A DNA stretch of 64,000 nt from Zanthoxylum bungeanum (Eukaryota > Streptophyta > Magnoliopsida > Sapindales > Rutaceae). The DNA is taken from contig SKCR01035553.1 of NCBI GenBank assembly GCA_019454045.1, positions 123,195 to 187,194 of the forward strand, written 5' to 3'. The translations under genes and the position numbers were made by a program. Numbering within the stretch: the stretch's first letter is position 1; the number at the start of each line of letters is the position of its first letter. Shown in pieces: positions 2,031 to 42,100 of the stretch. A model generated the notes under the pieces. The model searched no databases. It saw only the letters and a list, made by a program, of their open reading frames with translations, and had not been told where the DNA came from.

Positions 2031-2034
2031 GAAG

Positions 2035-3260: not shown

Positions 3261-3261
3261 A

Positions 3262-3904
3262 GATAATAAACCAAGTTCTTATTGGGAGGTAACCCAATGA
3301 AATAGGTAGTTAGTCGGTTTATTTTAAAAAAAATGACGCGTCGCAATGCTGATTTTGGTGTCGAGACGCGACGTGGGATACAAGCCATACAAAGTTCTAG
3401 AGAGCGGGACGTCGCGATGCAACGCTCCCGTTTAAAAAGTAAATAATACCCAACAGTGCGACATTTTGCACAGAAGAAACCTGCTTTGGCCACATCCGGC
3501 CCTTCGGTGTTAAGTAATAATATGTATTTGATCCTCCATATTCTCCATTGTAATTCTAATAGATGTGTTCATTTGATTATCCTCATAGCTAGGTTGGTAC
3601 CGTAATAAGTTGGTATTGTATTTGTCTTTTATCCTAGCACAAGCTATGTGTTTTTGCCCAAGTCGACCAATTAATTCTTTTGTTGGGTTGTTCTAAGAGT
3701 GTGTGGAGGTGTACTTTGGACAATAGAACCTTATTCTTAAGACATATATGAGTAGAATGACAGTAAGTGAAGGCCATAAGTTTTTGATATCAACCTTGCC
3801 CACCTAGTGTTTGATGAATTGCCCCTAAGATAATTCTTACATCAGTTGAGAAGTTTGGGTGTGTGGTGTAGTGTGTAGACAATATTGTAGGCAAGAGTGG
3901 TATT
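3262..3904 (+). other. spacer between integrase and third ORF of Athila-1
   Basis: No coding potential is seen. It starts with a block shared by the three Athila copies here (compare 31990-32055 and 60920-60980 on the opposite strand), continues with GC-rich CGTCGC/GCGACG-type motifs near 3335-3425, and then AT-rich leader-like sequence up to the third ORF. Confidence 0.5.
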
Positions 3905-9884: not shown

Positions 9885-11150
9885 CATGGTTATTTGTTTA
9901 TATGTATGACGTGATCGAGCGCATGGGCTTAGTAAGTTGGATTAAAGGTCCCCTATTTTGAGGGGTTAAAATCCTTTATCACGATGCTTTGCCGCGCCGA
10001 TTGATGTATATTCGGTTGAATCTAAGATGTGTTCAATCGGGTATATGAAGTCCGATATTATTGTTTATATGTATGACGTGATCAAGCGCATGGGCTTAGT
10101 AAGATGGATTAAAGGTCCCCTATTCTGAGAGGTTAAAATCCTTTACCACGATGCTTTGCCGCGCCGATTGATGTATACTCGGTTGAATGTAAGATGTGTT
10201 CAATCGGGTATACGAAGTCCGAAATGATTGTCTTTATTTTTATATGCATGATGCGATCGAGCGCATGGGCTTAGTAAGTTGGATCAAAGGTCCCCTATTT
10301 TGAGGGGTAAAATCCTTTACCACGATGCTTTGCCGCGCCGGTTGATGTATATTCGGTTGAATGTAAGAGGTGTTCAATCGGGTATATAAAGTCTGATATG
10401 ATTGTCTTTATTTTTATATGCATGATGTGATCGAGCGCATGGGCTTATTAAGTTGGATCAAAGGTCCCCTATTTTGAGGGGTTAAAATCCTTTACCACGA
10501 TGCTTTGCCGCGCCGATTGATGTATACTCGGTTGAATGTAAGATGTGTTCAATCGGGTATACGAAGTCCGAAATGATTGTCTTTATTTTTATATGCATGA
10601 TGCGATCGAGCGCATGGGCTTAGTAAGTTGGATCAAAGGTCCCATATTTTGAGGGGTTAAAATCCTTTACCACGATGCTTTGCCGCTCCGGTTGATGTAT
10701 ATTCGGTTGAATGTAAGATGTGTTCAATCGGGTATACGAAGTCCGATATTATTGTTTTTTTATTATTTATATGTATGACGTGATCGAGCGCATGGGCTTA
10801 GTAAGATGGATTAAAGGTCCCCTATTTTGAGGGGTTAAAATCCTTTACCACGATGCTTTGCCGCGCCGATTGATGTATATTCGGTTGAATGTAAGATGTG
10901 TTCAATCGGGTATACGAAGTCCGAAATGATTGTCTTTATTTTTATATGCATGATGCGATCAAGCGCATGGGCTTAGTAAGTTGGATCAAAGGTCCCCTAT
11001 TTTGATGGGTTAAAATCCTTTACCACGATGCTTTGCCGCGCCGGTTGATGTATATTCGGTTGAATGTAAGATGTGTTCAATCGGGTATACGAAGTTCCAT
11101 ATAGTTATCTTTATCTTTGTACGCATTGTAATGAAAAGCGCATGGGCTTA
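9885..11150 (+). repeat. ~175-bp tandem array in the Ogre-like LTR
   Basis: The marker CATGGGCTTA recurs at 9922, 10089, 10264, 10438, 10613, 10791, 10966 and 11141, giving periods of 167, 175, 174, 175, 178, 175 and 175 bp. Seven units are well preserved and the last is degenerate. Each unit holds two short inverted repeats: CCCC-N6-GGGG around 'cccctattttgagggg', and CGGTTGAAT...GTTCAATCG. Open frames crossing the array are chance products of the repeat. Confidence 0.92.
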
Positions 11151-16955: not shown

Positions 16956-18396
16956 TGTAACACCCCGCCAGAGGCAGGATACTACCGGAAGGAGAAAGGA
17001 TTGACTCATCTTCTTAAGCCTCTAAATTTATAAAAATTCAGCATGATGTATCCTAAAACTGGACAACCTGGATCTCAGTCCAACATCAAAACGAACCTGA
17101 AATAAACATCATATATTATAATGGACATCAGGTCCACACCACCATATCAAAATCATCACCTAAGGGCTTCATGCCCATATCATCTATCAACACTCAAGGG
17201 CTCTATGCCCACAAAATCATAAGCAGTCAAAAAGTTTACTTAATACAAACGACGTGCTCAGCACAACAAATAAAAAAATAAATCAAATATCCTAAACTTC
17301 TAAAACTTCTCCCAAGACATTTGCTAGGGTGACTGACGTTTAGATGATCCGCGTCTCGAACATGACTTCCAAAGCTGTCGTGGTTGACTAATCTGGAAGC
17401 GAACCTGTAAAAATACAAATTGGTTTGGTGTGAGTTATAAAACTCATTAAGTAACCATGCTCATGCACCAACAAAACATAAAGTCAAGCATACTATAAGC
17501 TTTTCAACTTTATCAACTTTTAACTAACCTTTTATCTATTACATATGCAAATCCTCATTTCTATTTACATATATATGTGCCAATCTAAAAGCCAAAACAC
17601 TCAAAGCACGCAAGACAAGAATTCAAATATCACAAAACGAATCATTTAACATCAAATCCATTTAAATCACGTGAAACATACAGTCATATATCTATATTTT
17701 TTCTACGAATAAACATCATTGAAACATCAAACAAAATTTATTCTATTCGATTACAAACTATCTTTTAATCCTGATAGCTTTACAACAACTTAACATTTAT
17801 GACTTATACGCATTCACCTATAACATTACGAAAATCATAAATTACTTCTCTTAAATTCATGCAAATCTCATTTTCAGAGTTCTTACACATATACGTACAT
17901 ATCAATACAACTTAGCAAATACACTTTACAACATCTGAGATTCACATCGGCTTTTAAATTATTCGTTCATTCCACGTAAGCATAGACTATCCATACATAT
18001 GACACATCATACACTTATAAACACACAGATATACATACAGTCATCGTACAACCGATAACGAAACACATATAATAATCAGTACATCACAGAACACATCGTC
18101 AAACAATACAAACATATGGGTGGTTTACACATACAATGCTCGTTCGGGACTCATTACCTATTTTAGAATAGGTATGAGATGAATTTCGTCCGAACGGATC
18201 CATAACCAGCTCGACTACTATACTACGAGAACATCGACTAAATAAACATATACACATATCACTGAACACATTCATACATAAGCATAACTTTTCATACATA
18301 AGCACATTCATGACAACACTCTAAGTTATCATTCAAACACTCATATATATATATATATTGAAACATACAAATATACATATTATTACGAATACGAAT

Positions 18397-20398
18397 TGTT
18401 GGACAATTATGACCCATAGCGTCACCATTTGTACAGATCATGGTGTTGTTGTACAAATTAACTATGTCACAAAGGAGATTGCACTCTTATCATTTGTGAT
18501 TAGATCACCTAGATATATAAATGATAGAAGGTCCCTGTGATTTGTTCATGCATTGAGAATGATATGAGACAGTATCAATCCACGAAGGATAAATAATTAA
18601 ATATCCCTAGTCAGAGCATTATCGAGATTGGAGATCGATGAATGCGTAAAAGACTAGTATTACACTTGTGCACGTTGTGAGGGCACAACATCATAGTTCT
18701 AATATATTTGGGTATATGATACTCATGCAAGTGTAATAGGAGGTTGTGTTTCACCGATGGTACGGGAAACAGCTTCGCTCTGGATAAGACCCCCTCGGAA
18801 TTCCATTAGTAGTATGACTATGTGTCTATAGAAATCCGAAATCAGGGTAGGTGTATTTGGTCTTAACCTGAGACTTGCACCGCTAATACTTGCGACAATC
18901 AATATACTTTGGTTGCGGTCGTCCAGGGCTTTAACAGGCTCTGTGTACACCAATGCTGGGTATATTGAGAATCGTAGTGTGTTGGGTGTGATGTAAAGAC
19001 GGAAGTGTCACTCCAGTCATATGGAGTTGATGATCGCGCAAGGATACATAACTGGTTCTCTATATAAGATTACAACCGTTGGGATAATATGACTTGGTCA
19101 TGATTATCCGATATTAAAGAGACTAGTTGTTTGTTATCCGATATATGCTTCGTACAGGGCAGACACTGTACCAGCCCCAGGCCTTGCATGTGATCATCCG
19201 ATACTGGACAGAAATATGCAATACTACGTATACTACGCCTGATACAGATCCTTTATTCCTGTAAGGATATTTCCGGACAATTGGGTAGGCATGACGCTTT
19301 GCTAGAGGCCAACATTGTCTTGTAAATCGGTAAAACGTAGTACGAGGTACTTACGTGTTCAGATAGTCCGACGATCGAATTTACTGCCGACATATCCGGG
19401 GATCTCATGGGTCGCTTCCCAAAGATTCACCGATGACGTATGACTCGCACTTTTAATTAATCTGGGATTAATTAGATGAGAGAGAAAATTAATCTGAGAT
19501 TAATTACGGAGATATTTTATCTGGGATAAAATATCATTTAAAGAGAGATAACGATTAATTTGGAATTAATCGGTTAAATTAATATATTCGATATATTAAA
19601 CGAAATTAGATTTCGACGCGGAATTGAAATTAGATTTTAATTCGGGCGAACGAATTAATTTAGAATTAATTCGTACGCGACGTAAATAGTGACTTCGCTA
19701 GGCGTAATCATTTAATTACGTCGCAACGGAAAATTCGTTAATTTAGAATTACCGAACCCGAGCCCGGGATTATTTGCAAGCGCATTCGCATTTCGAATTC
19801 GAGTGCGACATGCAAGTCAAATCAAGCGTCAAATCATTAGTCGCATCAAGCGTCAAATCACTTGTCACTTTGAGTGATGTGACTTGACAACTTAATTGAA
19901 GTGAGTTGATGTGTGTGGTTGGATAAGCTTGTACTTGTTTGACTTTTGAAATCAAATAAAGGTATATGTTAATTGATTTTAGAAATCAATTCAACCATTA
20001 CACAAAACCTATTCTCTCTCTTTCTTCTTTACTCCCTTTCTCACGCCATTTTCTGTTTTTGCTGGGCTGAAACCGAAATGAAAGGAAGCAAAATATGGAT
20101 TTTTGTGGCAAAAATAAAGAGAGCTAGCACTCCAAGAGACATGCAAAGGTGATAGGGAAGTCCACCCATGAGCCGGGAACCATTCGACGAAGCTTGGAGC
20201 TTGACGAAGGACCACCATTCACGCCAAACCAGTGAGCTTGGACTGTAGTTTGCCGTGACTGTGAGGAGAAGAATTTGAAGTTTTGTTCGTCAAAGCGTCG
20301 CTCAACCGATCGATGTAAGTATTCCGCGACTTCCTCGATTGTATTCACACATGTTCATGCTTGATTTATGATCCTTGGGGCCCTTAGAATATCCAACA
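18397..20398 (+). repeat. copia-A 5' LTR
   Basis: It is bounded by TGTTGG...CCAACA and followed by the PBS. It carries an array of AT-rich palindromes at about 19455-19690 (TTAATCTGGGATTAA, TTTATCTGGGATAAA, TTAATTTGGAATTAA) and a CT-rich, leader-like segment (about 20010-20040). Open frames on the reverse strand (18723-18953, 20124-20348) reappear in the 3' LTR only because the LTRs are duplicates. Confidence 0.9.
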
Positions 20399-26227: not shown

Positions 26228-26237
26228 AGTGGGAGAT
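26228..26237 (+). other. copia-A polypurine tract
   Basis: AGTGGGAGAT directly precedes the TGTTGG start of the 3' LTR, the classic copia PPT position and sequence. Confidence 0.8.
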
Positions 26238-28099
26238 TGTTGGACAATTATGACCCATAGTGTCACTATTTGTACAGATCATGGTGTTATTGTACAAATT
26301 AACTATGTGATAAAGGAGATTGCACTCTTATCATTTGTGATTAGATCACCTAGATATATAAATGATAGGAGATCCCTGTGATTTGTTCCTGGATTGAGAA
26401 TGATATGAGACAGTATCAATCCACGAAGGATAAATCATTAAATGTCCATAGTCAGAGCATTATCGAGATTAGACATGGATGAATGCGTAAAAGACTAGTA
26501 TTACACTTGTGCGCGTTGTGAGGGCACAACAACATAGTTCTCATATATTTGGGTATAGGATACTCATACAAGTATAATAGGAGGTTGTGTTTCACCGATG
26601 GTACGGGAAATAACTTCGCTCTGGATAAGACCCCCTCGGAATTCCATTGGTAGTATGACTATGTGTCTATGGAAATCTGAAATCAGGGTAGGTGTATTTG
26701 GTCTTAACCTGAGACTTGCACCGCTAATACTTGCGACAATCAATATACTTTGGTTGCGGTCGTCCAGGGCTTTAACAGGCTTTGTGTACACCAATACTGG
26801 GTATATTGAGAATCATAGTGTGTTGGGAGTGATGTCAAGACGAAAGTGTCACTCCAGTCATATGGAGTTGATGATCGCGTAGGGATACAGAACTGGTTCT
26901 CTATATAAGGTTACAACCGTCAGGATAATATGACTTGGTCATGATTATCCGATATTAAAGAGACTAGTTGCTTGTTATCCGATATATGCTTCGTACGGGG
27001 CAGACACTGTACCAGCCCCAGGCCTTGCATGTGATCATCCGATACTGGACAGAAATACGCAATACTACGTATACTATGCCAGATACAGATCCTTTATTCC
27101 TGTAAGGATATTTCCGGAGAATTGGGTAGGCATGGCGCTTTGCTAGAGGCCAACCTTGTCTTGTAAATCGGTAAAACGTAGTACTGACCGGCTTAAACAC
27201 ACACGTATAACGCAAGCGTACGTATCGTTCAAGTAGTATAAAAAGTATCGATCCCACGAGGACTTAAAACCTTATCTATTAATTTTTATGAGGTCAAATG
27301 ATTACTAGTATCTAACAGGTTGTTTAATTGATTTGAAATGACGATGATTCTAAATTTAAAACAAGTAAATAAAATTGCTTAAAAGTAGATTTTAAGAAAA
27401 TTCAATTTTAAAAACTATCTAGGGTTGTGATTTATTCCAATATTAATTAAAGATGAAGTGATTATCTTATAGTTGGGTAAAATATTGATTTATTAACCTG
27501 AAACACTAAATTTTATAAAAGCCTCTTCCGATGGTCAATTACAAATACCTAGTATAATCCAATTGAACCATATGTCTATGTCAACCAAATTACCTAGATT
27601 CATTAAGATTAAGTTCCAATTATGGCTACCCCCGCCCGACAGGTATATTCCTATCCTGTAAGGAAATCTATTAAAGGGTTATCTATCCTCAAGGAAGATC
27701 GTGGGCTATTGAGTCTAAGGTCTTAAACTTAAAATCCCTATGTCTAGTTCATTTTAAGTTTACCTAATCAATTTAATTAAAGACCAGTTAATTAAAGAGC
27801 ATTAAGATTAAGACTCAATAAACAAATCTTTATTTTACTCAAACTATAATCTAACCCCTTATAAACCCGTGATATTGGATTTCATCACAACCCTAGATAA
27901 CTAACTTAGTTATGACACATAACTAGGGCTAGTAAAAACTTAAAAGTAAAAGCCATAAAGTAACAGTGCTGAAAAGTAATTGCAGTAAAGTAAAAGCTTT
28001 AAAAGTAAAATAAAATAAAATGTTAAGGTAAAAGGAATTATTTCTACTACTACTTATTTAGATATCTCCCCGTAAAATAATATATAAACTTGTGATTAT

Positions 28100-28240
28100 T
28101 ACCAACCAGCCATATAGGCGGTAACCTGATTAAGTCAATTTAAGTCCAACCAGCCATAAAGGCGGAACCAAAGTAAACCAGCCATAAAGGCGAACCAAAT
28201 AAACCAGCCATAAAGGCGGAAAATGAATTTTATTACCAAC
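28100..28240 (-). repeat. minisatellite in the Athila-2 3' LTR
   Basis: Tandem units of about 25-28 bp built on CCAGCCATAAAGGCGGAAC, with diverged outer units (CCAGCCATATAGGCGGTAAC and CCGACCAATCTGGCGGTATC). It lies downstream of the TATA box in transcript orientation, so it would be in R/U5. Confidence 0.85.
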
Positions 28241-28540
28241 CGACCAATCTGGCGGTATCCTGATTAAGTCAAATTTTAAATGGTATATATATATTTTAAG
28301 GGAGATTAATCTAAATAGTAATAGTAAAAAGATTACCTTTCACCCTAGCATAAGGAAGTTACCTCCTCATGATTGAATAGTAAAAACTGTAATAAAATAA
28401 AGAAAGTAAATTACTATTATTACAAAACGTAATTAAAAATTACAAAACTAAATTAAAAGAAACTTAGAGAGAGAAGAACTCCCTAATTACATCAAAGAAG
28501 TGAGAGAGAATGGTACAATGAAATCTGAAATTTCGAGCTC

Positions 28541-28548
28541 TATTTATA
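28541..28548 (-). promoter_or_regulatory. TATA box, Athila-2 3' LTR
   Basis: Reads TATAAATA on the minus strand, within CCTATAAATAGAGCTC; a plausible start lies about 30 bp downstream (lower coordinates). The equivalent in the 5' LTR is 38844-38851. Confidence 0.65.
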
Positions 28549-28630
28549 GGCGCGGATAAGGGTCCAGAGTCGCGACGTGGAACAGTTCAGCGTCGCGACT
28601 CAGCTACAGTAAATCATGGCACAATGATGA

Positions 28631-28885
28631 CTTGACACGTGGCGAGGCGGCTAAGAGCTCAGATCCTTATCCGATGACGTGGCACTGTTCATGACGTCAT
28701 TGGTGACATCACGCTGACGTGTGGAGGGCGATTGTCGGCACCGTGAGGTCTCGACACGTGGCACCGGCGCACATTAACAAGTCCGTTGTTGATGGCGACA
28801 CGTGGCACGGCGCGCAAGATAGCCTGATCGGCGCATTTTAGCAGGCGTCGCACGTTAGCAAATTTTCTGATTGGTCCACGTGTCC
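28631..28885 (-). promoter_or_regulatory. G-box/ABRE cluster, Athila-2 3' LTR
   Basis: Four perfect CACGTG hexamers (28636, 28755, 28799, 28877), an ACGTGGC (28677) and a TGACGTCA palindrome (28692) fall within about 250 bp, some 90-340 bp upstream of the TATA box. G-boxes and ABREs are bound by plant bZIP and bHLH factors, and TGACGTCA by TGA-type bZIPs. Response to ABA, light or stress is inference. Confidence 0.65.
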
Positions 28886-29139
28886 ACAGCGTACTTTAGC
28901 AAATCCGGCGCATTCTGGGAGTCCACGACCCGAAAGGCTTCAGGTCGCGACGCTGAAATGACGATTTTGCCCTTTTTGTCCAGTTTTTCTTTTTTGCTCC
29001 AATTCACCTCCAGAATGTCCTGAAACTTTATTATCTACAAAATAACATAAAACACATCAAAATATTCATAAAACCCAAGAAACTATACAAAATATTAGGT
29101 TAAATGAGTGGGAAATAGTGATAGATTCACCACTCAGCA

Positions 29140-29160
29140 CACCCCAAACCTAACATTTTG
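29140..29160 (-). other. Athila-2 polypurine tract
   Basis: On the minus strand AGGTTTGGGGTG directly precedes the LTR start TGCTGAGTGG, with the shared GGACTAGCAAAATG box just upstream. Confidence 0.8.
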
Positions 29161-30377
29161 CTAGTCCTCGAGCAAAATAGAAAATAAAATACATGAAAAT
29201 AAAATTAACTAAGCCACTTTCGTAGGGATCACGGTTGCATTTAGCGTATGCAACAAGCCTTTAAACCCCTAGGTGTCCCTATGGACGAGTGTAGTCTCGT
29301 GAGGGTTTACAGCAATGATACCCACAAACATTTTACAAAAGTAAAAAGTTAGTTAAAACTAATGCACACAAAAGCAAAAAGACAAGAGAAAAGAGAATAA
29401 AGAAGTTAGTGACTAATCAGGTGAAACTTCTACTCCAAGTTACTAGTTGTTTTGTTTCAATCTAAATTACTGAATAAGTAAATTCTCCGATTATTTTTAC
29501 CATTCTCCATATACACAGCCAACATAATATTAATCAACTCATTTTTGCCCACAACAGTCATAAGTGCAGTTGATAAGAGAGTAATATTTTTGTCCTAAGT
29601 TCTATCAGATTCACACCTTGTTGTAGCAATGGAATAATTTTTCTGATTTTTCTGATTTTTTTTTCTTGATTTTTCTCTATTTTTTTATTTATATACAATA
29701 CCTTCCGTCTATGTAGCGAGCTTTAGGTCGGTGGCTCCCAAATCAGTTGGCTTTAGGGCACCAGGTGTTAAGACACCCTTACGAACTTAATTACTCAGAC
29801 TTCATATATAAATATATTTTTGCAGCATCTTCGATCCATGTAATGAGCTTTGGGCCAGTGACTCCAAACCAGTTGGTTTTAGGGCACTAGGTGTTAAAAA
29901 CCCTTACAGACTTAATAACCCGGATCTCGGATATTTTATTTTATTTTATTTTATTTTTTTTACTCCATTGCCATTTATAGATGCTTCCTTCAATTAAACT
30001 AGAGCACGGAATATTACAACTTTTCAATTACAGCTCATGTCCGTATGTTTCCATGTATGTTGATAATACCTGCCAACTGAGCATATGAAGATTCATTTTA
30101 GTCCATTTTATTGAGAATTTACGAATTAAATAATTCAAAAGGAAATAAACAAAAATTAACTTGTTCCGAAATAAATGGTTTGAGATACGTATCAGGAGTG
30201 GGAACTCCTTACTCAGCTACTTCTCACCAATTTCACCTTTTTAGTCAAAACAAAAACACAAAAAACACAAAATATTTTTGTAAATTTTTGAAAATTTTTC
30301 AATTTTTTTGTATTTTTCGAAAAATTTTGGACTAAAAATAAAAACAACATACAAACTAAAAACAAGGTACTAATCAA
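29161..30377 (-). other. Athila-2 3' untranslated region
   Basis: No gene. It includes the block conserved in all three Athila copies (29215-29340), with a perfect 7-bp stem and 7-nt loop at 29234-29254 (GTTGCAT/ATGCAAC). T-rich stretches lie near 29640-29700 and 29935-29965. A diverged duplicated segment is seen at about 29700-29790 and 29825-29930 ('gagctttaggtcggtggctcc' versus 'gagctttgggccagtgactcc'). Confidence 0.6.
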
Positions 30378-30381
30378 CTAA

Positions 30382-30400
30382 TTCCCTCCCCCAAACCTAA
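30382..30400 (-). other. internal polypurine tract of Athila-2
   Basis: Reads AGGTTTGGGGGAGGG on the minus strand and follows the LOG ORF by about 80 bp. It corresponds to 5101-5118 in Athila-1 and 60671-60690 in Athila-3, marking the conserved downstream edge of the third-ORF slot. Confidence 0.55.
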
Positions 30401-30482
30401 ATGAGACATTGCCCCCAATGTCTTAAAAAGTAGAAGAAGAGTTTAGAAGGTCGTACCTGGTTAGCTGAAAATCTACAGGAAA

Positions 30483-31136
30483 TTAAAGGTTAAGATCCAG
30501 ATTAATTCTACGTCTCTTACCACGATCGTCCTCAGACCAATTTATCTTTGAAAGAATAGGGTCAGCTCGTGGTTCATAGGCTATGAGTTGGTCTATTAGA
30601 TCCGGAGCAGTCCTGGCAGTGAATATGATTTCTTTCATAGGTTTTGACACGAACCCATTTCTCCGAGCATCATCAAGAAACACATAAAGAAAATCATAAA
30701 ACCCATCAACGTTGTACAACCCAATTGGTTTCTGGTGTATGTTCAGGTTCGCCCAAGATAGTACAATAAAAATTTCCTCCAATGTGCCCAAGCCACCTGG
30801 CAAAGCAATAAAAGCATCAGCACGGTTAATCATTTCTACCAGTCGTTCAGACATACCTGGCACAATTAATTCCTCTCCGTTTGATGGTTCAATAAGATTT
30901 GCCTCTGCCAAGGGTTTTGGGATGATTCCCAAAACGTGACTGACTCCTTCCTGTGCGGCCTTTGAAACAATCCCCATTAGTCCAAGATTGCCTCCTCCAT
31001 ATATTAAGTGCATATTCCTTGCCGCTAAGACTCGACCCAATTCATGTGCTGCTTCTATGTATTGTGGTTTAGTACCAACACTACTACCACAAAATACACA
31101 GATGTTTTCAACTCGTCTTCTTGAGGTGGCTTCCAT
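30483..31136 (-). CDS. LOG-type cytokinin riboside 5'-monophosphate phosphoribohydrolase carried by Athila-2
   Basis: Intact 217-aa ORF without introns. The frame is open further upstream, but the first ATG is at 31136 (MEATSRRR). LOG enzymes release free-base cytokinin from the riboside monophosphate in the cytosol and nucleus. Visible motifs: FCGSS (15-19), the nucleotide-binding loop GGGNLGLMG (47-55), and the catalytic signature PGGLGTLEE (113-121). Arg98 of the MxxRK motif is kept but the next Lys is Leu (MSERL). Length is normal for plant LOG proteins; the PGGLGTLEEIF form resembles a divergent plant LOG-like group. The C-terminus is KRRRINLDLNL: a basic patch followed by an LxLxL motif. 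Known plant LOG genes have several introns, so a captured cDNA is likely. The alternative, a neutral passenger with no activity, cannot be excluded. Confidence 0.93.
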   Translation of the reverse strand: MEATSRRRVENICVFCGSSVGTKPQYIEAAHELGRVLAARNMHLIYGGGNLGLMGIVSKAAQEGVSHVLGIIPKPLAEANLIEPSNGEELIVPGMSERLVEMINRADAFIALPGGLGTLEEIFIVLSWANLNIHQKPIGLYNVDGFYDFLYVFLDDARRNGFVSKPMKEIIFTARTAPDLIDQLIAYEPRADPILSKINWSEDDRGKRRRINLDLNL

Positions 31137-31386
31137 TTTTTTATTCTGGATATCTTCAAAAGTGCAATGATGAGTTGAATTTATAATACCTAAAAAGGGT
31201 GAATAAAAATAGCACAAGTATCTTCCAAAGGACGATTAGTAGCAAAATAGTAAAATAAATCTTGATATGGTCAAAAAGATCTGGATCCTGTCGGAGGAAA
31301 TAAAAAAAAACAACAAAACAAATCACAATTATTAGGAAAAGACAAAGAGATATAATATGTACTAGAATTTACAACTTGATTAACGT
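31137..31386 (-). other. spacer between the two accessory ORFs with acceptor-like sites
   Basis: On the minus strand, CTCCGACAG (ending about 31292) after a long T-run and GATATCCAG (ending 31146) resemble 3' splice sites; the second lies only 9 nt before the LOG start codon. This would allow LOG to be translated from a spliced RNA. No donor was identified with confidence. Confidence 0.3.
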
Positions 31387-31935
31387 CTATGCGTCAGGGA
31401 CAAGCTTCCCATCCAATTTTCTTATAAATTGGCAAACATGGTCTTTTTGAGTCAGATTCCCAAGACTTAACTGTTGTCTTTCTTTTTGAAATTGTGTATG
31501 TAATCTGTGAAAGTCTATGTGAACATATCCACTAGGATGCGTCTCAAGAGTCGAAGATATATCATCTAAAGACTCCTTACTCAAGCCATCCCTAATGAAT
31601 TTAATTTTGTCTTCGCGATTAACAGACACCATTCCTAAAGAACGACAACGAGTATTGCAATTCCAACGTGCACATTTGTAACAAACACCCATTTGCTTAA
31701 CTATTCGTTTCTTTACATAGGTGCTTCTTCCAAAACCAGGCAGATGTGAAATAAAAGAATCAGAAGACTCACCTGCCAATCGGACTCGTGCTTCAATTAC
31801 CCAACAAATGTCATTGGGAACACCATAGATCGTCAGTAATCTCATCCGTTCCAAGCGAGCCTTGTAGACTTTCATAAGAGATTTTTGAGGGAGAGAAGGA
31901 AATTGCTTGTGAAGATTTGCGAGAGCTTCTTCCAT
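31387..31935 (-). CDS. cysteine-rich nucleic-acid-binding protein, carlavirus NABP-like
   Basis: Intact 182-aa ORF from the ATG at 31935; the open frame extends 11 codons further upstream, without an ATG. In order: an N-terminal charged/helical part (1-55), a Gly-rich basic motif GFGRSTYVKKR (67-77), then four cysteines spaced C85-x2-C88-x4-C93-x3-C97, then a downstream KFIRDG (112-117) and a charged tail. A Gly-Arg-Ser-x-Tyr basic motif directly before a four-Cys finger, followed by a Phe-Ile-Arg segment, is how I recognise the nucleic-acid-binding proteins of carlaviruses and relatives, several of which suppress RNA silencing. The ORF lies directly after integrase and before LOG, on the same strand. 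It has no resemblance to the Athila-1 third ORF. Remote homology judged by eye only; a host or retroelement zinc-finger protein is the alternative. Confidence 0.65.
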   Translation of the reverse strand: MEEALANLHKQFPSLPQKSLMKVYKARLERMRLLTIYGVPNDICWVIEARVRLAGESSDSFISHLPGFGRSTYVKKRIVKQMGVCYKCARWNCNTRCRSLGMVSVNREDKIKFIRDGLSKESLDDISSTLETHPSGYVHIDFHRLHTQFQKERQQLSLGNLTQKDHVCQFIRKLDGKLVPDA

Positions 31936-31950
31936 CTTGAAATCACTTAA

Positions 31951-31985
31951 TCTGCAAAAACTAAACACAAAAAATTAAATCACAC
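31951..31985 (-). other. possible 3' splice site before the NABP-like ORF
   Basis: On the minus strand a T-rich run ends GTTTAGTTTTTGCAG (last base at 31952), 16 nt before the ATG. This fits a plant acceptor and could create a subgenomic mRNA, as env is made in retroviruses. Prediction only. Confidence 0.35.
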
Positions 31986-32074
31986 CAAATCACAATATAT
32001 ACAAAAATTGCATGGGTTGCCTCATTGCGAGCGCTAAGTTTAAAGTCGTCAGCTAGACGTGACTGCTCAAACGT

Positions 32075-33382
32075 TTATGCTGGATCTGAAAGTGTGACAC
32101 TTTCTTTTTGTCGCTCAAATGATTCTCCCCAGTAGTTCTTGACACGCTGACTGTTAACTTTGAATGTGTTGTTGGTATTGGGATCCAGTAACTCAACGGC
32201 TCCATATGGTAAAACCTGAGTGATCACAAATGGTCCGGACCACCTAGATTTCAACTTTCCCGGGAAAAGTTTCAATCTCGAGTTGTACAATAACACCTGC
32301 TGCCTTGGTTCCAACTGTCTGTGCACTATTTTTCGGTCATGCCATTTTTTGGTCTTTTCCTTGTATAATTTGGCATTGTCATAAGCCTGTAGGCGAAATT
32401 CCTCCAATTCATTGAGTTGGTGAAGTCTTTTCTCTCATGAAGCTTGTGAGTCAAGATTCAACTTCTTCAGTGCCCAGTACGCCTTGTGTTCAAGCTCAAC
32501 TGGCAGATGACATGCTTTCCCAAACACCAATCGATATGGGGACATACCAATGGGTGTCTTGTAAGCTGTTCAGTAGGCCCATAATGCATTATCCAATTTT
32601 GTAGACCAGTCCCTCATTGTTGATCCAACGGTCATTTCTAGGATTCTCTTGATCTCCCTGTTTGAAACCTCAACCTGTCCATTTGACTATGGATGGTAAG
32701 CAATAGCAACTTTGTGAGTAACTCTATATTTGGATAGGAGTGCATCAAAGTATTTGTTGCAGAAATGAGAGCCACCATCGCTGATGATTGCTCGAGGTGT
32801 TCCAAACTGAGTGAAAATGTTATTTTTCAGGAATTTGATCACCACTTTTGAATCATTGGATGGTAGTGCAATTGCTTCAACTCATTTGGAGACGTAGTCT
32901 ACAGCAACCAGGGTGTACAGGTTTCCAAATGATGGAACAAAGGGTCCCATGAAATCAATACCCCATACATCGAATATCTCCACTTCCAGAATATTTTGCA
33001 ACGGTCCTTCATTTCTCCTCGAAATATTCCCCGTTCTCTGGCACTTGTCACATTGAAAAGCAAAAAGATAAGCATCTTTAAAAAGTGTGGGCTAGAACAA
33101 ACCTGATTGAAGGACTTTGGCTGCAGTTTTGTTTCCGCTGAAGTGTCTGCCGTATGGTGATGAATGACAGTGTTGCAGAACACTGTTGACCTCCTCCTGT
33201 GGAACACACCGTCTCAATAATTGATCAGCACATCGTTTAAATAGGTACGGTTCATCCCAGACATAGTGCTTGACTTCTTTAAAGAACTTCTTCCGTTGCT
33301 GAGTTGTCCATTCCAACGGCCATTTTCCTAACACAATGTAGTTGACATAGTCAGCATACCAAGGGACTTCCTGTTGTTTCAT
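32075..33382 (-). pseudogene. Athila-2 integrase, five stops
   Basis: One frame runs through this whole region with in-frame stops at 33092, 32882, 32687, 32570 and 32435. Domains: HHCC zinc-binding region (from the H-C-H-S-S segment near 33180 to the CDKC segment near 33045), the DD-E core ([10 protein letters not shown] near 32960; [13 protein letters not shown] near 32780; [12 protein letters not shown] near 32650) and a C-terminal domain ending in VNSQRVKNYWGESF, stop at 32075. The catalytic residues are still visible. Stops at 33092 and 32882 look like decayed Trp codons, and those at 32687 and 32570 like decayed Gln and Arg codons, all consistent with cytosine deamination. Confidence 0.9.
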
Positions 33383-33409
33383 GGAAAACAGCTGTTCATC
33401 TGGAAAAGT

Positions 33410-35124
33410 TTATTTGATTGATAATTCTTTGCCAGCTGTTTCTCCATTCTCGAGCCTCGATAAGTGATCTGCCACCTGGTTTTCTGTTCCTTTCCTGTCT
33501 CGAATCTCCACGTCGAATTCTTGCAAAAGAAGTATCCAACGGATCAATCTGGGTTTGGCATCTTTCTTTGTGATCAGATATTTGATTGCTGAATGATCTG
33601 TATAGACCACCACTTTGGGACCCAACAGATAGGAGCAGAATTTGTCAAAAGCGTACACAACTGTTAGCAACTCCTTTTCAGTGGTTGTGTAGTTGAGTTG
33701 AGCTTCATTCAGAGTTCTGCTGGAGTAGTAAATGGTGTGGAAAATCTTTGCTTTGCGTTGTCCCAAAACTGCACCTACAACAAAATCACTAGCATCACAC
33801 ATTACCTCAAATGGAAGGGTCCAGTCTGGTGCTACTATGATGGGAGCAGAGACCAGCTTCTGTTTTAAGATTTCAAAAGCTTCATGGCATTCTTTGGTGA
33901 AGTTGAAAGGCACATCTTTCTCCAGAAGATTGCATAGAGGTTTAGCAATCTTGGAAAAGTCTTTGATAAATCTCCTGTAAAAACCTGCATGTCCAAGAAA
34001 ACTTCGAATACCTTTAACTGATGTTGGTGGAGGTAGTTTTTCAATTGTCTCTATCTTTGCTTTGTCTACCTCAATCCCCTTTTGTGAGATCCGGTGTCCA
34101 AGAACAATGCCTTCCTGCACCATAAAGTGGCATTTCTCCCAGTTGAGTACCAGGTTTGTATCTTCGCACCTTTGTAACACCTGTTCCAAATTTTGCAAAC
34201 AATGGTCAAAAGAATCTCCAAACACAGAAAAATCATCCATAAAAACCTCCATACTCTGCTCTAGCATGTCTGAGAAAATGGCCATCATGCAACGCTGAAA
34301 TGTGGCAGGGGCATTACATAATCCAAATGGCATCCTGCGGAAAGCAAAAGTACCATAGGGACATGTAAAGTAGTTTTCTCCTGGTCTTCTGGTGCGATGG
34401 TAATCTGATTGTACCCTGAATATCCGTCCAGAAAGCAATAGAACTCATGTCCTGCCAGTCTTTCTAACATCTGGTCAATGAATGGTAGCGGAAAATGGTC
34501 CTTCCTCGTGGCTTTGTTAAGTTTTCGATAATCCATGCATAATCTCCATCCAGTCACTGTTCTTGTTGGGATTAGCTCATTTTTTTCATTGGTGACCACA
34601 ATAATTCCTGATTTCTTTAGCACACACTGCATAGCACTCACCCAACTGCTGTCTGAGATGGGGTAAATGATGCCAGCATCTAACCATTTGATGATTTCTT
34701 TCTTCACGACTTCCTTCATGATTGGATTGAGTCTCCGTTGATGCTCCACTATGGGTTTGTATTCATCATTCATCAGAATCTTGTGCATGTAAAATGATGG
34801 ACTAATGCCTCGAATGTCTGCTATAGTCCAGCCAATGGCTCTTTTGTGCTCTTCTAATACTCTCAGTAGTTTTTCTTCCTGATCCAATGTTAGAGAAGAA
34901 GAAATAATAACAGGTAATTCAGAAGAGTTTCCAAGAAATGCATACCTGAGATGGCTCGAAAGTGACTTCAGCTCCAGCTGTGGTGGTTCTTCAATCGAAG
35001 GCTTGATTCGATCTTTCTTTGGCAATTCCAAGCTTTCAACTGGTGGTGTTGGTTTGAATCGAAATGGTTTGTCAAGGTAGTTAATACATTCCAGGATTTC
35101 AGCATCTAGCTCGTTGTCAGTCAT
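33410..35124 (-). pseudogene. Athila-2 reverse transcriptase and RNase H, one frameshift
   Basis: RT starts in the 33410-35124 region after the PR-RT linker (LRYAFLGNSSELPV). Blocks: WRLCMDYRKLNKATRKDHFP, then a one-base loss near 34370 in the 'TCPYG' codons shifts the frame; [19 protein letters not shown], the active site [10 protein letters not shown] (F-M-D-D), then [16 protein letters not shown]. RNase H blocks are [30 protein letters not shown] and [11 protein letters not shown]. The frame ends at a TAA (33410) before integrase; it otherwise continues directly into the integrase frame, as expected for one polyprotein. Confidence 0.92.
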
Positions 35125-35297
35125 ATTGGTGATGCAAGCTTCAAGTGTATCCGTGGGATTTGGCTCAGTATCCTGAATGATACTATCAATAACATCAACT
35201 CTGAAGCATTCTTCTTCTTCCTTTTCATCACTCGGAATTTCATAGCTTTGAAAACATTAAAGGTCACTTCTTGGTCCTGCACTTTCATGGTTAGTTC

Positions 35298-35927
35298 TCA
35301 TTTTTGCACATCAATTACAGTTTTACCTGTAGCCAAAAATGGTCTCCCAAGAATGATAGGTATTTCTTTGTCTTCTTCCATGTCAAGGATGATGAAATCT
35401 GCTGGAAGGATGAGTTTGTCAACTTTGACAAGCACATTTTCAACGACTCCTCTTGGAAATGCTAGCGTTCGATCAGCAAGTTGCAAAGATACCGAGGTAG
35501 GTATTGCTTCTCTAATTTGCAGTTTCCTGTAAATAGAAAAAGGCATTAAATTAACACGGGCACCTAAATCACATAAAGCCTTACCGATGTAATGTTCTCC
35601 AATGGTGCAAGGTACAGTGAAACTGCCAGGATCTTTCAACTTTGGGGGAAGCTTCCTCTGAATGATGGCGCTGCATTCTTCTGTCAAAGCTACTGTCTCG
35701 TAATCTCCCAATCTTCGTTTTCGTGAAAGAATGTCTTTCATGAATTTTACATAGCTGGGCATTTGTTCCAAGGCTTCTGCAAATGGTATGTTAATGTGCA
35801 GCTTTTTGAAAATCTCCAAGAAACGAGCAAACTGTTTTTCTAGTTTGTTTTTCTGAAGACGCTGAGGAAAAGGTGGTGGTGGAGTGATCTGTTCTTTTTC
35901 TTTTTCCTTTGCTTCTTTTTCTTCCAT
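35298..35927 (-). pseudogene. Athila-2 gag C-terminus and aspartic protease
   Basis: The region is in frame with gag upstream. A Pro/Glu-rich linker (TPPPPFPQRLQKNKLEKQF) is followed by the protease with active site CDLGARVNLMP and the ILGRPFLAT flap-distal block; the D-L-G form is usual for Athila proteases. A TGA ends it at 35298, and a one-base frameshift near 35240 separates it from RT. PR would cut the Gag-Pol polyprotein. Confidence 0.88.
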
Positions 35928-36107
35928 CTGCGGAACTGCATCTTTTGGAATATCTTCAATTGTTGCCTTGATTCCAACATCTTTGTTGATCTCAGTACCA
36001 CTCTTTAAGGTAATGGCTTGACATTGCTCATTCCCTCGGTTCCTTGGATTTGGTTCTGTGTTGCTGGGAAGATTACCTGGCGGTCTGTAACTCTGAGCAT
36101 TGGCCAG

Positions 36108-37325
36108 TTATCCGATTTGATTCTCCAGTGCTTTGATGGAAGCTGATTGGCTCTGAATCATAGCTTCATATCTTTTTAATTGAGCTAACATCTCTGCCAT
36201 CACTGGTTCATTTGTCTGCTCCTAGCCTTTATTCTGTTGCTGGAATCCAGGTGGTGTATAGTTATTTTGCCCTGAATTGTTGCTCTATGAAAAATTAGGA
36301 TGATTCCTCCACCCTGGGTTGTAGGTGTTGGAATATGGATTGTTCCCCTGTCTGTTGAAATTGTTGACATAATTCACTGTTTCTTCAAGTTGGTTTGGTT
36401 CTGGTGCTCCTCCATATGGTGAACTTGTGGATCCAGTGATGCTTTGAGTGTTGAGAGTCTCCATAAATTTGCATATCTGATCCAGCTTGGTGTTGACTGC
36501 TGTATTTGCTCCAACTTCATAAATTCCTGCAATTCTTTGAATCAGACTTCTTTCTGTTGGCCACAAGGAATTGTTGTTGGCCATTTCTTCAATTAGGTCC
36601 CAGGCTTGATCTTCTCCTTTTGCCATCAAAGTTCCTCCAGCAGCAGCATCAACTGTGGTTCTCATCAGTCCAGAAAGTCCATTATAGAAAGTTTGGACTT
36701 GAAGCCATTTTGGAATCTCATGGTGAGGACATTTCCGGAGCAAATCTTTGTATCTTTCCCAAGCTTCGTACAGGGATTCTGAATCTTGCTGCACAAAGGA
36801 TGTGATGTCATTTCTCAACTTTGCAGTTCTGGCTGGTGGAAAGTATTTTGCAAGGAATTTGGTGGCTAGAGTGTTCCAAGTTGTGATGGATCCAGCTAGT
36901 AGTGAATGTAGCCAAGCTTTTGCTCTGTCTTTCAAGGAATATGGGAAAACTCTCAGTCTCATAGCTTCTTCAGCTCCTCGGTTGTAATTGAACGTGCCGC
37001 AAACTTCCAGGAAGTTGCTGATGTGGGCATTAGGATCTTCAGTTGCATTTCCTCCAAACTGAACTGTCTGCTGAATCATCTGAATGCAAGTTTTGATGTC
37101 ACCCGCATTTGCTGGTAAGGAAGGAAGTACAATACAGGAAATGAGGCCATCTATCACCGGAATGGTTCTGTCTCGAATGGGAATTGGTGGTGCAACCTCC
37201 AAAGGTTCAGGTTCCATGTTGACTAAAGCTTCTTGGCCTTCTCGCCTTTCCATTCTCAATTGTCTGATGGTTCTTTCAATTTCTGGGTCAAGCGGTCGGA
37301 TTTCAAAGCTTCTGGTTCGTCTCAT
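36108..37325 (-). pseudogene. Athila-2 gag, three stops
   Basis: The first ATG is at 37325 (MRRTRSFEIRPL). The capsid-like domain has the Athila blocks EDPNAHISNFLEVCGTF, RLRVFPYSLKDRAKAWL, FLAKYFPPARTAKLRNDI, FVQQDSESLYEAWERYKD and LQVQTFYNGL. The Asn/Gln-rich C-terminal tail is broken by TAG at 36285, TAG at 36222 and TAA at 36108. Gag would form the virus-like particle. An acceptor-like TGTTTCAG lies just upstream (exon edge 37340). Confidence 0.9.
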
Positions 37326-37434
37326 GAAGTGTCTGAGAACCTGAAACACAATAAAACAAAAACAATAAGTAAAAAGAAAAATTAAATACAAGTAACGAAT
37401 CTAACCCGTAAACTAATAGTAAAAGATAACTAAG

Positions 37435-37452
37435 TCCCCGACAACGGCGCCA
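37435..37452 (-). other. Athila-2 primer-binding site (tRNA-Asp)
   Basis: On the minus strand TGGCGCCGTTGTCGGGGA pairs with the 3' end of plant tRNA-Asp with one mismatch. It lies 6 bp inside the 5' LTR, as is usual for Athila elements. Confidence 0.85.
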
Positions 37453-38374
37453 AAAACTTGACCGGCGTAAACACACACGTATAACGCAAGCGTACATATC
37501 GTTCAAGTAGTATAAAAAGTATCGATCCCACGAGGACTTAAAACCTTATCTATTAATTTTTATGAGGTCAAATGATTACTAGTATCTAACAGGTTGTTTA
37601 ATTGATTTGAAATGACGATGATTCTAAATTTAAAACAAGTAAATAAAATTGCTTAAAAGTAGATTTTAAGAAAATTCAATATTAAAAACTATCTAGGGTT
37701 GTGATTTATTCCAATATTAATTAAAGATGAAGTGATTATCTTATAGTTGGGTAAAATATTGATTTATTAACCTGAAACACTAAATTATGTAAAAGCCTCT
37801 TCCGATGGTCAATTACAAATACCTAGTATAATCCAATTGAACCATATGTCTATGTCAACCAAATTACCTAGATTCATTAAGATTAAGTTCCAATTATGGC
37901 TACCCCCGCCCGACAGGTATATTCCTATCCTGTAAGGAAATCTATTAAAGGGTTATCTATCCTCAAGGAAGATCGTGGGCTATTGAGTCTAAGGTCTTAA
38001 ACTTAAAATCCCTATGTCTAGTTCATTTTAAGTTTACCTAATCAATTTAATTAAAGACCAGTTAATTAAAGAGCATTAAGATTAAGACTCAATAAACAAA
38101 TCTTTATTTTACTCAAACTATAATCTAACCCCTTATAAACCCGTGATATTGGATTTCATCACAACCCTAGATAACTAACTTAGTTATGACACATAACTAG
38201 GGCTAGTAAAAACTTAAAAGTAAAAGCCATAAAGTAACAGTGCTGAAAAGTAATTGCAGTAAAGTAAAAGCTTTAAAAGTAAAATAAAATAAAATGCTAA
38301 GGTAAAAGGAATTATTTCTACTACTACTTATTTATATATCTCCCCATAAAATAATATATAAACTTATGATTATT

Positions 38375-38545
38375 ACCAAGCAGCCATATAGGCGGTAACC
38401 TGATTAAGTCAATTTAAGTCCAACCAGCCATAAAGGCGGAACCAAAGTAAACCAGCCATAAAGGCGGAACCAAAATAAACCAGCCATAAAGGCGGAACAA
38501 AAATAAACCAGCCATAAAGGCGGAAAAGGAATTTTATTACCAACC
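38375..38545 (-). repeat. minisatellite in the Athila-2 5' LTR
   Basis: Same CCAGCCATAAAGGCGGAAC-based units as 28100-28240, with one extra unit, which accounts for most of the 29-bp length difference between the LTRs. Confidence 0.85.
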
Positions 38546-38843
38546 GACCAATCTGGCGGTATCCTGATTAAGTCAAATTTTAAATAGTAAATATATTATT
38601 TTTAAGGGAGATTAATCTAAATAGTAATAGTAAAAGAATTACCTTTCACCCTAGCATAAAGAAGTTACCTCCTCATGATTGAATAGTAAAAACTGTAAAA
38701 TAAAGAAAGTAAATTACTATTATTACAAAACGTAATTAAAAATTACAAAACTAAATTAAAAGAAACTTAGAGAGAGAAGAACTCCCTAATTACATCAAAG
38801 AAGTGAGAGAGAATGGTACAATGAAATCTGAAATTTCGAGCTC

Positions 38844-38851
38844 TATTTATA
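38844..38851 (-). promoter_or_regulatory. TATA box, Athila-2 5' LTR
   Basis: TATAAATA on the minus strand in the LTR that would transcribe gag-pol and the accessory ORFs. Confidence 0.65.
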
Positions 38852-38940
38852 GGCGCGGATAAGGGTCCAGAGTCGCGACGCTGGAACAGTTCAGCGTCGC
38901 GACTCCAGCTACAGTGAATCATGGCACAATCACGGCTTGA

Positions 38941-39183
38941 CACGTGGCGAGGCGGCTAAGAGCTCAGATCCTTATCCGATGACGTGGCACTGTTCATGAC
39001 ATCATTGGTGACATCACGCTGACGTGTGGAGGGCAATTGTCGGCACCGTGAGATCTCGACACGTGGCACCGGCGCACATTAGCAAGTCCTTTGAGATGGT
39101 GACACGTGGCACGGCGCAAGATAGCCTGATCGGCGCATTTTAGCAGCGGCGCACGTTAGCAAATTTTCTGATTGGTCCACGTG
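38941..39183 (-). promoter_or_regulatory. G-box/ABRE cluster, Athila-2 5' LTR
   Basis: Perfect CACGTG at 38941, 39060, 39103 and 39178, plus an ACGTGGC near 38982, all upstream of the TATA box. The TGACGTCA of the other LTR reads TGACATCA here. All four hexamers are kept in both LTRs. Confidence 0.65.
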
Positions 39184-42100
39184 TCCACGGCGTACTTTAG
39201 CAAATCCGGCGCATTCTGGGCGTCGCGACGCGAAAGGCTTCAGCGTCGCAACGCTGAAATGACGATTTTGCCCTTTTTGTCTAGTTTTTCCTGTTTTGCT
39301 CCAATTCACCTCCAGAATGTCCTGAAACTTTATTTATCTACAAAATAACACAAAACACATCAAAATATTTACAAAACCCAAGAAACTATACAAAATATTA
39401 GGTTAAATGAGTGGGAAATAGTGATAGATTCACCACTCATCAAGTACGAGGAACTTACGTGTTCGGATAGTCCGACAACCGAATTTACTGCCAACATATC
39501 CGGGGATCTCATGGGTCGCTTCCCAAAGATTCATTGATGACGTATGACTCGCACTTTTAATTAATCTGGGATTAATTAGATGAGAGGGAAAATTAATCTG
39601 GGATTAACTGCGGAGATATTTTATCTGGGATAAAATATCATTTAAAGAGAGATAACGATTAATTTGGAATTAATCGGTTAAATTAATATATTCGATATAT
39701 TAAACGAAATTAGATTTTGACGCAGAATTGAAATTAGATTTTAATTCTTGCGAACGAATTAATTTAGAATTAATTCGTAAGCGACGTGAATAGTGACTTC
39801 GCTAGGCGTAATCATTTAATTACGACGCAACAGAAAATTCGTTAATTTAGAATTAGCGAACCCGGGACCGTTATTATTTGCGAGCGCATTCGCATTTCGA
39901 ATTCGAGTGTGACACGCAAGTTAAATCAAGCGTCAAATCATTAGTCGCATCAAGCGTCAAATCACTTGTCACTTTGAGTGATGTGACTTGACAACTTGAT
40001 TGAAGTGACTTGATGTGTGTGGTTGGATAAACTTGTACTTGTTTGACTTTTGAAATCAAATAAAGGTATATGTTAATTGATTTTAGAAATCAATTCAACC
40101 ATTACACAAAACCTATTCTCTCTCTTTCTTCTTCACTCCCTCTCTCACGCCATTTTCTGTTTTTACTGGGCTAAACCCGAAATGAAGGGAATCAAAGTGT
40201 GGATTTTTGTGGCAAAAATAAAGAGAGCTAGCACTATGAGAGACATGCGAAGGTGATAGGGAAGTCCACCCATGAGCCGGGAACCATTCGACGAAGCTTG
40301 GAGCTTGACGAAGGACCACCATTCACGCCAAACCAGTGAGCTTGGACTGCAGTTTGCCATGACTGTGAGGAGCAGAATTTGAAGTTTTGTTCATCAAAGC
40401 GTCGCTCAACCGATCGATGTAAGTATTCCGCGACTTCCTCGATTGTATTCACACATGTTCATGCTTGATTTATGATCCTTGGGACCCTTAGAATATCCAA
40501 CACGAATGCCATAAATTTGAAAATCCCTATATCTTTCATTTATCAATCAAACATACTTAGTTTCATATTTTATATCTGGAAACCTTTGATACAAAACTTA
40601 TTAATTACAAATATTCATTTAAAAAGTGTTTAGCTTATACTCATTCCTTATCATGCTTAACCACTTCAATCTCTATACAAATAAATCACATATATAAACA
40701 ATATCAACTTATTCATATACTGTTTTCCCCATTTTCTGATTCCATATAACAAACCTATACATATCTTAACATCAAACACATATACAAATATATGTTCATA
40801 TACTTATACATTTACTTATTTATTTACTTACATGTAATCATATAGTCACATTACGTACATCTAAACATACACATAGACATTATGCTCATCAAACATTTCA
40901 CTTCATATCAAAGCATTAATAAAAATTCATACATGTGACGGTCGATAAACTTAACTATACGTAATCTCGTACCCAGTACTCAAAATCGCCTCTTAACTAT
41001 TCTCTTTTATCCTAACATGTTAATCATCTATATCTGTGTATGTGTATGTGTGTATATATATATATATATTTAAAACATGAATTCACCAATTCAAGTTCTC
41101 GTCGCATGGGTTACTTACCTAGCTTCGTGGGCACTCTAGGTCCTAGTCACATCTGTCAAAATAAATGGTGAACGTCAAAATCACGACTTATGGAGTTCTC
41201 GATTAAACTCCAACAAAAACCTGGATCTTTCCATAACAACCAAATCAATTCCATGTTTAATACTTTCAATTTTATTAATCTTAAAATATCATTATAAACT
41301 AACCAAGTCATCAGTTAACTTAAATTCTTGGTTTACGTGTTTTTGGAAAATCTTCTGAAAAAGTTTCCGTAAACACTATGGAAGGGTCCCGAACCCTCTA
41401 AACCTACCTGGATTTATCTAAACACTATCATAACATTATATATGACTCATATCAATCATTACGATCAAAACACAACATTATACGCAAAAACTCACTTTTA
41501 TCGGAAACTTGCGTATTCTATCGAATCGATCCAACTCGTATCGTTTTCACCCGGATTCTACCAAATGCATATATTCATTATTATAATACTCAAGTAATTC
41601 ATTTTATATCATTACGTTACTCTACGAAACTACTGGATACATTGTATATTTAGCGAAAAACTTGAAATTTGTGGATTTTTACCAGGAAGTCTTACCGAGA
41701 TTTCGAGGCCATATACGGACTCCAAACAATCCCACGAACGTGCTGGAGTCGACGGAATTCCGATCGGAGTCACTATTCACCATGGATCACTATTCATCTG
41801 AATCTTTCTCTCTCGATTCACGAGAAACCAAGCGTCATTCTGTAAAACTGACACCGCAACCTTGTATTGGCGGGTGGCTCGGGCCGTGAAATGAAATGAC
41901 GAGCCATGATCTACAAAACCCACCACGCGCGTCTATGTCCTCTCTTTTGCCATTTTTCGGCGTCTCTGCTTCGTCGCCAGCCACCATCAAATACGCGGTG
42001 TCCAGAATCTTCCATTCACCTGTTCGCCGGCCGGCGGTGGCCGGCTAGGCACAACCAAATTCCCTTTTTGCATTTTTTGGGAATGGGGTCGAATGAGAGA

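Follow-up and report, generated by a model that had tools for sequence, protein, structure and literature searches.

What a protein of plant-virus type contributes to a plant retrotransposon is the question raised by a locus in Zanthoxylum bungeanum. In a stretch of 64,000 nucleotides (contig SKCR01035553.1, positions 123,195 to 187,194; hereafter the window), a Ty3/gypsy long terminal repeat (LTR) retrotransposon was found to carry an open reading frame (ORF) of 182 residues that resembles the nucleic-acid-binding proteins (NABPs) of plant RNA viruses. The first-pass annotation had proposed that the element obtained this ORF from a virus, or shares an ancestor of it with one, and could use it against host small-RNA silencing. 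Such silencing holds down plant retrotransposons, and we know of few of these elements that carry counter-defence genes. A second intact accessory ORF, which that annotation did not mention, codes for a protein of the LOG type (cytokinin riboside 5'-monophosphate phosphoribohydrolase). Our preferred explanation, to which we assign a probability of roughly 0.6, is that the element represents an Athila-like gypsy lineage with a selected, viral-type NABP in the slot 3' of its integrase, joined in this copy by LOG.

The NABP ORF and its plant family

The NABP ORF proved to be real and to lie on the minus strand, which had not been specified before; the plus strand of the same interval is interrupted by stops. 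Its position between the integrase and the 3' end of the element was as described, with a broken integrase on one side and the 3' LTR on the other. The basic motif GFGRSTYVKKR, the cysteines C85, C88, C93 and C97 and the KFIRDG stretch 3' of them were all present in the ORF, and the basic motif stands immediately ahead of the finger, as in proteins of the viral NABP and Carla_C4 type. The protein is net basic, with 30 K/R against 19 D/E.

A protein search with the window NABP revealed 345 relatives at E <= 10, and the best 120 of these showed 55-87% identity; 64 of the 120 were exactly 182 residues long and 84 were 180-186 residues long. Named sources among the matches listed were Populus, Xanthoceras, Acer, Rhamnella and Orobanche, and several database entries each represented tens to hundreds of sequences. 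Subsets of the 121 sequences were picked for length and spread (A1, 48; A2, 106; tree, 35; single Pfam scans, 10). In the 48 aligned members, one histidine and many residues on either side of the finger were conserved in addition to the positions given in Table 1. In the tree, sequences from Xanthoceras and Acer formed one group (support 99/91) and the Populus copies grouped with four others (100/99), and the two Orobanche copies stood separately with weak support. As judged by these similarities, the window NABP is a member of a large and widespread plant family.

Relationship to viral NABPs

To relate this family to viral proteins, we compared its members with Pfam profiles. Carla_C4 (PF01623) was matched in 48 of the 48 members scanned, with a best E of 1.9e-7, and Viral_NABP (PF05515) was matched in 46, with a best E of 1.1e-8. 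When relatives were scanned singly, 10 of 10 passed the cut-off of Viral_NABP and 9 of 10 that of Carla_C4, and the Viral_NABP match extended up to residues 31-125. Neither profile matched any of five reversed NABPs; four of the five matched the unrelated, cysteine-rich Stress-antifung family, down to E 9.6e-4. Single E-values near 1e-3 therefore carry no weight, because reversed cysteine-rich controls reach them. A missing viral match or a better match to a host zinc-finger family had been named beforehand as grounds for rejecting the viral likeness, and neither was found: no such family outscored the viral profiles, and the only other repeated match was SHQ1 (5 of 48, best E 0.0024).

Two AlphaFold models of NABPs were searched against models of viral proteins with Foldseek. 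In one search, 14 of the first 15 matches were flexivirid proteins, 12 of them named as RNA silencing suppressor or nucleic acid binding protein and one more unnamed; in the other, 28 of 41 matches were flexivirid, 7 unnamed and 6 other. The virus families of these matches are ones that we take to be flexivirid. The Protein Data Bank (PDB) yielded no match by fold and only three by sequence, at E 0.8-1.1, which were taken as chance. Scans of viral contigs with the NABP, the NABP alignment and LOG gave no match.

The plant NABPs are thus very probably homologous to viral NABPs, a relationship established by the profiles at the level of the family, with which the fold search is consistent. A single recent insertion of a viral gene into one element was ruled out by the 345 relatives and by a second element of like arrangement, described below. 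Accordingly, the likeness to viral proteins in the first-pass annotation holds, and acquisition from a virus by this particular element is not supported, as the gene belongs to a widespread plant family. Transfer between virus and element may have gone in either direction.

Selection and possible exchange of the NABP gene

The second element was found in a public sequence (DAIEQH010000041.1, here L001), in which an intact integrase is followed by an intact NABP at 1799-2347 that is 64% identical to that of the window; a position after the integrase was therefore seen in two elements. L001 is filed under a Candidatus Nomurabacteria metagenome-assembled genome, but its plant-type gypsy integrase and NABP suggest that plant DNA has contaminated this public record.

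Comparison of the two NABP genes gave a dN of 0.23, a dS of 0.84 and a dN/dS of 0.28 (bootstrap 0.19-0.41). This ratio indicates that purifying selection preserves the NABP protein, and a selected accessory function appears highly probable. A chance ORF was ruled out by the same ratio and by the 345 relatives at E <= 10.

We also found that silent sites were far less diverged in NABP than in the integrase. The proportion of differing silent sites (pS) was 0.83, which is saturated, in the integrase and 0.50 in NABP, and 60 of 86 fourfold sites differed in the former as opposed to 10 of 43 in the latter (Fisher p 6.7e-7). Along NABP, identity climbed broadly but unsteadily, from 37 to 52 of 60 per block, and the last third of the gene contained two stretches, 33 and 35 nt long, in which the DNA of both copies was identical. 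An overlapping gene as the source of the low silent divergence was rejected, as the five other frames hold 4-19 stops in both copies. The contrast from this one pair therefore suggests that either NABP was swapped between element lineages after their integrases had split, or the NABP RNA is itself constrained. Additionally, the window contains a second integrase of like kind on the plus strand (1855-3189; 39-59% identical to the L001 integrase, depending on the segment), and two Transposase_32 ORFs occupy the 3' slot after it (1855-4812, plus strand), as expected of an exchangeable slot.

The LOG ORF

The LOG ORF is intact, intronless and 217 residues long. Pfam Lysine_decarbox matched it with an E of 2.3e-35 (scanned with an upstream extension), its TIGR00730 score of 169.9 exceeded the cut-off of 96.35, and its closest solved relative in the PDB was Arabidopsis At2g37210 (E 2.7e-58). 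In a LOG, the active-site Arg and the Glu of PGGxGTxE are catalytic, and these were kept in 91 and 95 of 98 aligned relatives, respectively. By profile and active-site motif, the product is a LOG-type enzyme.

To place this protein among its relatives, 121 window-type LOGs (the window sequence and the best 120 of 149 relatives, chosen by sequence and not by element context) were compared with 120 host LOGs. The latter were the best 120 of 4853 passing the threshold and nearest to one Arabidopsis protein; the named ones were mostly LOG1/LOG3-like, and LOG5, 7 and 8 types were not purposely sampled. Subsets were picked for length and spread: 56 of the 121 and 10 of the 120 for the tree, and 98 of the 121 (length 205-230) for the active-site counts. 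In the tree, the two kinds lay on opposite sides of one fully supported branch. A distinctive feature of the window type was the C-terminal tail, which ends in INLDLNL in the window and fits the LxLxL motif. Such a C-terminus was present in 92 of the 121 window-type LOGs, 91 of which had a basic cluster ahead of it, and in none of the 120 LOG1/3-like host LOGs; in 500 rounds of shuffled tails, the mean was 2.9 and the maximum 8. LxLxL is described as an EAR motif (PMC9956375, passage cited), and the tail fits TOPLESS binding.

LOG lies within the LTRs, which ruled out an ordinary host gene beside the element. Many-copy LOG entries from Reevesia, Populus and Xanthoceras were among the matches listed, and these would be compatible with mobile elements. 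Two database proteins, P0022 (NABP) and P0212 (LOG), each come from a JGI contig sized 4511 and each cluster with Populus; this hints at a shared contig, for which equal size is no proof.

Structure and age of the host element

The features of the element are collected in Table 1. Along it, the order is gag, protease-like ORF, RT/RNase H, integrase, NABP, LOG and 3' LTR; the LTR pair, target duplication, primer site, gag and the reverse transcriptase-RNase H (RT/RNase H) region ahead of the integrase are those of the Ty3/gypsy order. The primer binding site is presumably of the tRNA-Asp type. Athila-like is a label, taken from the first-pass annotation, the 3' extra ORF and the presumed type of this primer site. 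NABP and LOG are each single-copy within the window.

Table 1. Coordinates in the window of the retrotransposon and its features.
Feature	Position	Strand	Evidence
Ty3/gypsy LTR retrotransposon, complete, 12.3 kb	27185..39442	-	LTR pair, TG...CA ends, target duplication, nested insertion
5' LTR	37459..39442	-	LTR comparison
3' LTR	27185..29139	-	42 substitutions in 1947 aligned sites vs 5' LTR
Target site duplication AGTAC, left copy	27180..27184		Sequence
Target site duplication AGTAC, right copy	39443..39447		Sequence
Primer binding site TGGCGCCGTTGTCGGGGA, adjoins 5' LTR	37435..37452	-	Sequence
gag ORF	36285..37391	-	Pfam Retrotrans_gag, E 5.3e-23
Protease-like ORF	35298..35927	-	Weak Asp_protease match, E 0.024, under cut-off
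RT/RNase H region, two frames	33410..35124	-	ORFs; Pfam RVT_1, RT_RNaseH
Integrase region with six in-frame stops	~32075..33475	-	tblastn with L001 integrase (intact relative)
NABP-like accessory ORF, 182 aa	31387..31935	-	ORF; 345 relatives; family matches Carla_C4 and Viral_NABP
Basic motif GFGRSTYVKKR, residues 67-77	31705..31737	-	G67, G69, S71, K75 each kept in at least 45 of 48 aligned members
Four-Cys finger C85, C88, C93, C97 (C-x2-C-x4-C-x3-C)	31645..31683	-	Cys kept in 48, 47, 48, 45 of 48
LOG-type ORF, 217 aa, intact, intronless	30483..31136	-	Pfam, TIGR00730, PDB
LOG C-terminal tail RGKRRRINLDLNL, basic cluster + LxLxL (EAR-like)	30486..30524	-	LxLxL end in 92/121 relatives, 0/120 LOG1/3-like host LOGs

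With LTR divergence as the clock and the L001 integrase as a proxy, and with the faster decay of methylated DNA ignored, NABP should have gained about 0.24 stops since insertion, and NABP and LOG together about 0.47, which gives a probability of 0.62 that both would be free of stops. Their intactness in the window is thus no argument for function, because few stops are expected. The integrase holds six stops where 0.61 were expected (P 4e-5), and this excess suggests that the copy last transposed with its pol already broken, helped in trans.

Several further observations were made in the window. An older LTR element (18395-20398 vs 26236-27184 and 39443-40502) has its right LTR split by the insertion of the NABP/LOG element. 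Tandem repeats lie at 9897-11102 (period ~175, 6.9 copies) and, within the 5' LTR, at 38422-38525 (period 28, 3.7 copies). A tRNA scan gave no match. Rfam snoR71 (RF00097) matched the plus strand at 36715-36821, antisense to the gag ORF, at 58.3 bits where the gathering score is 40; this is either a true snoRNA or an Rfam family that took in retrotransposon sequence.

Proposed mechanism and alternative explanations

Under the preferred explanation, NABP would be translated from an RNA of its own, probably a spliced one, would enter the nucleus via its basic motif and would bind RNA or DNA there. By analogy with its viral relatives, it would most likely dampen the small-RNA silencing of the element, reprogram host transcription, or do both; as its main role, silencing suppression falls a little short of an even chance, and transcriptional reprogramming is possible with a somewhat lower probability. 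LOG would release active cytokinin and so raise its level, and it may recruit TOPLESS through the EAR-like tail; together, the two proteins would maintain the host cell in a dividing, permissive state. A scan for splice acceptors found no candidate passing the filter ahead of the window NABP, two ahead of LOG and one ahead of the L001 NABP; with 12 candidates across the 8.3-kb interior, these are weak indications. A bolder version, which we regard as improbable, sees the lineage as complex retroelements with a two-protein cassette for host manipulation, in which a mobile-module NABP acting as suppressor or transcription factor is combined with a TOPLESS-tethered cytokinin enzyme that drives division. 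Such elements would correspond in plants to retroviruses with accessory and growth genes, and they would have supplied flexiviruses with their NABP.

Several results weigh against the preferred explanation. Scanned alone, the window NABP reached only E 0.0026 and 0.0056 for the two viral Pfam families, and its scores lay under the Pfam gathering values (18.1 vs 20.9 and 17.1 vs 23). Its strict C-x2-C-x4-C-x3-C finger, shared by 100 of the 121 NABPs (window included), does not have the carlavirus spacing. The two AlphaFold models were modest (pLDDT 62 and 70), and Foldseek gave no match to viral models at E <= 0.001 and low TM-scores. The measure of selection comes from one DNA pair, window and L001, together with protein conservation. 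LOG was not found in L001, including the 983 bases 3' of its NABP, so that the pairing of NABP and LOG is shown in the window only. In addition, the Lys of MxxRK was lost in 93 of 98 LOG relatives (kept in 5), where the motif has changed to MxxR[LIM]; the window sequence is MSERLVEM.

This last change is one ground for supposing that LOG is no longer a cytokinin enzyme and acts on another nucleotide or serves as a nuclear scaffold recruiting TOPLESS by its tail. The LxLxL tail and the missed equivalog cut-off (115.8 vs 300, in a model used for naming in bacteria and archaea) point the same way, but the retention of the active-site Arg and Glu and the closeness to At2g37210 argue for the original activity, and we consider such a shift rather unlikely. 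A different reading of NABP is that it chaperones nucleic acid or packages RNA, as a spare nucleocapsid-like protein serving the element's own RNA, and that its viral likeness would reflect common RNA-binding ancestry with no counter-defence. Its basic motif, cysteine finger and net basic charge, the conservation of residues flanking the finger and the location in the 3' slot would all suit this role, which nevertheless seems unlikely to us, since the passages of the sources cited below present the viral relatives as regulators and suppressors rather than as partners of a capsid.

Transfer could also have run from element to virus, with flexiviruses having acquired NABP from plant retrotransposons. 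The presence of the plant family in at least five named genera would agree with this, as would movement of NABP as a module, which is one reading of the silent-site contrast; on the other side, no viral sequences stand in the tree, and the occurrence of NABP in many flexivirid genera, as seen in the fold matches, fits a virus as the source equally well. We hold this reversal to be a minority possibility. Very improbable, in our view, is a dying element with two chance passengers that are intact merely because the insertion is young. The low LTR divergence (42 of 1947 sites) and the probability of 0.62 given above would allow it, but it is opposed by the long-range conservation in the 345 NABP relatives, by the dN/dS of 0.28 and the same NABP position in L001, and by the active site and tail retained in window-type LOGs.

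Comparison with known systems

LOGL4-like ORFs were reportedly found in two Athila-like elements by Steinbauerova et al. in 2011. LOG in gypsy elements is known, whereas our literature searches, assessed on titles, abstracts and the frequency of terms, revealed no report of NABP in plant retrotransposons. The NABP family offers a concrete and cheaply testable candidate for counter-defence in the extra-ORF slot of retrotransposons, and through LOG and its EAR-like tail, control of a hormone would join the possible effects of these elements on the host. Some plant retrotransposons may therefore manipulate the host cell much like viruses.

The nearest viral counterparts are the flexivirid cysteine-rich proteins (CRPs) and NABPs, which share with the element NABP the order of basic motif, four-Cys finger and conserved stretch and are likewise encoded by a 3'-terminal accessory gene. 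In the passages cited, p12 of chrysanthemum virus B activates transcription in the nucleus and suppresses silencing in the cytoplasm (PMC7588395) and causes hyperplasia in the host (PMC12172455), and in mandarivirus CRPs both the basic motif and the finger are important for symptoms and viral accumulation (PMC12172455). The element NABP differs in lying within an LTR retrotransposon instead of at the 3' end of an RNA virus, in its length of 182 residues, in conserved N- and C-terminal parts beyond the coverage of the viral profiles, and in its finger spacing, which in potato virus H is C-X2-C-X9-C-X4-C (PMC3689765, passage cited).

Among retrotransposons, PMC9289625, with reference to Steinbauerova et al. 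2011, describes LOG (YgdH) in gypsy elements from Citrus and Populus; these are likely of the same kind as the window element. That paper reports 15 domains, nine of which are named in its section 12; its text contains neither 'NABP' nor 'carla', and its sections 12 and 17 do not mention an LxLxL tail. A further parallel comes from orchids, where gypsy elements encode the RNA demethylase AlkB, as AlkB is another module common to flexiviruses and gypsy elements in the cited part of PMC9289625; NABP ties a flexivirus accessory gene to gypsy elements in the same way. AlkB is a different enzyme and was biochemically tested, whereas the window element is known from its sequence. Finally, further Athila-type elements, of which the one at 1855-4812 in the window is an example, use the same slot after the integrase for extra ORFs of different content.
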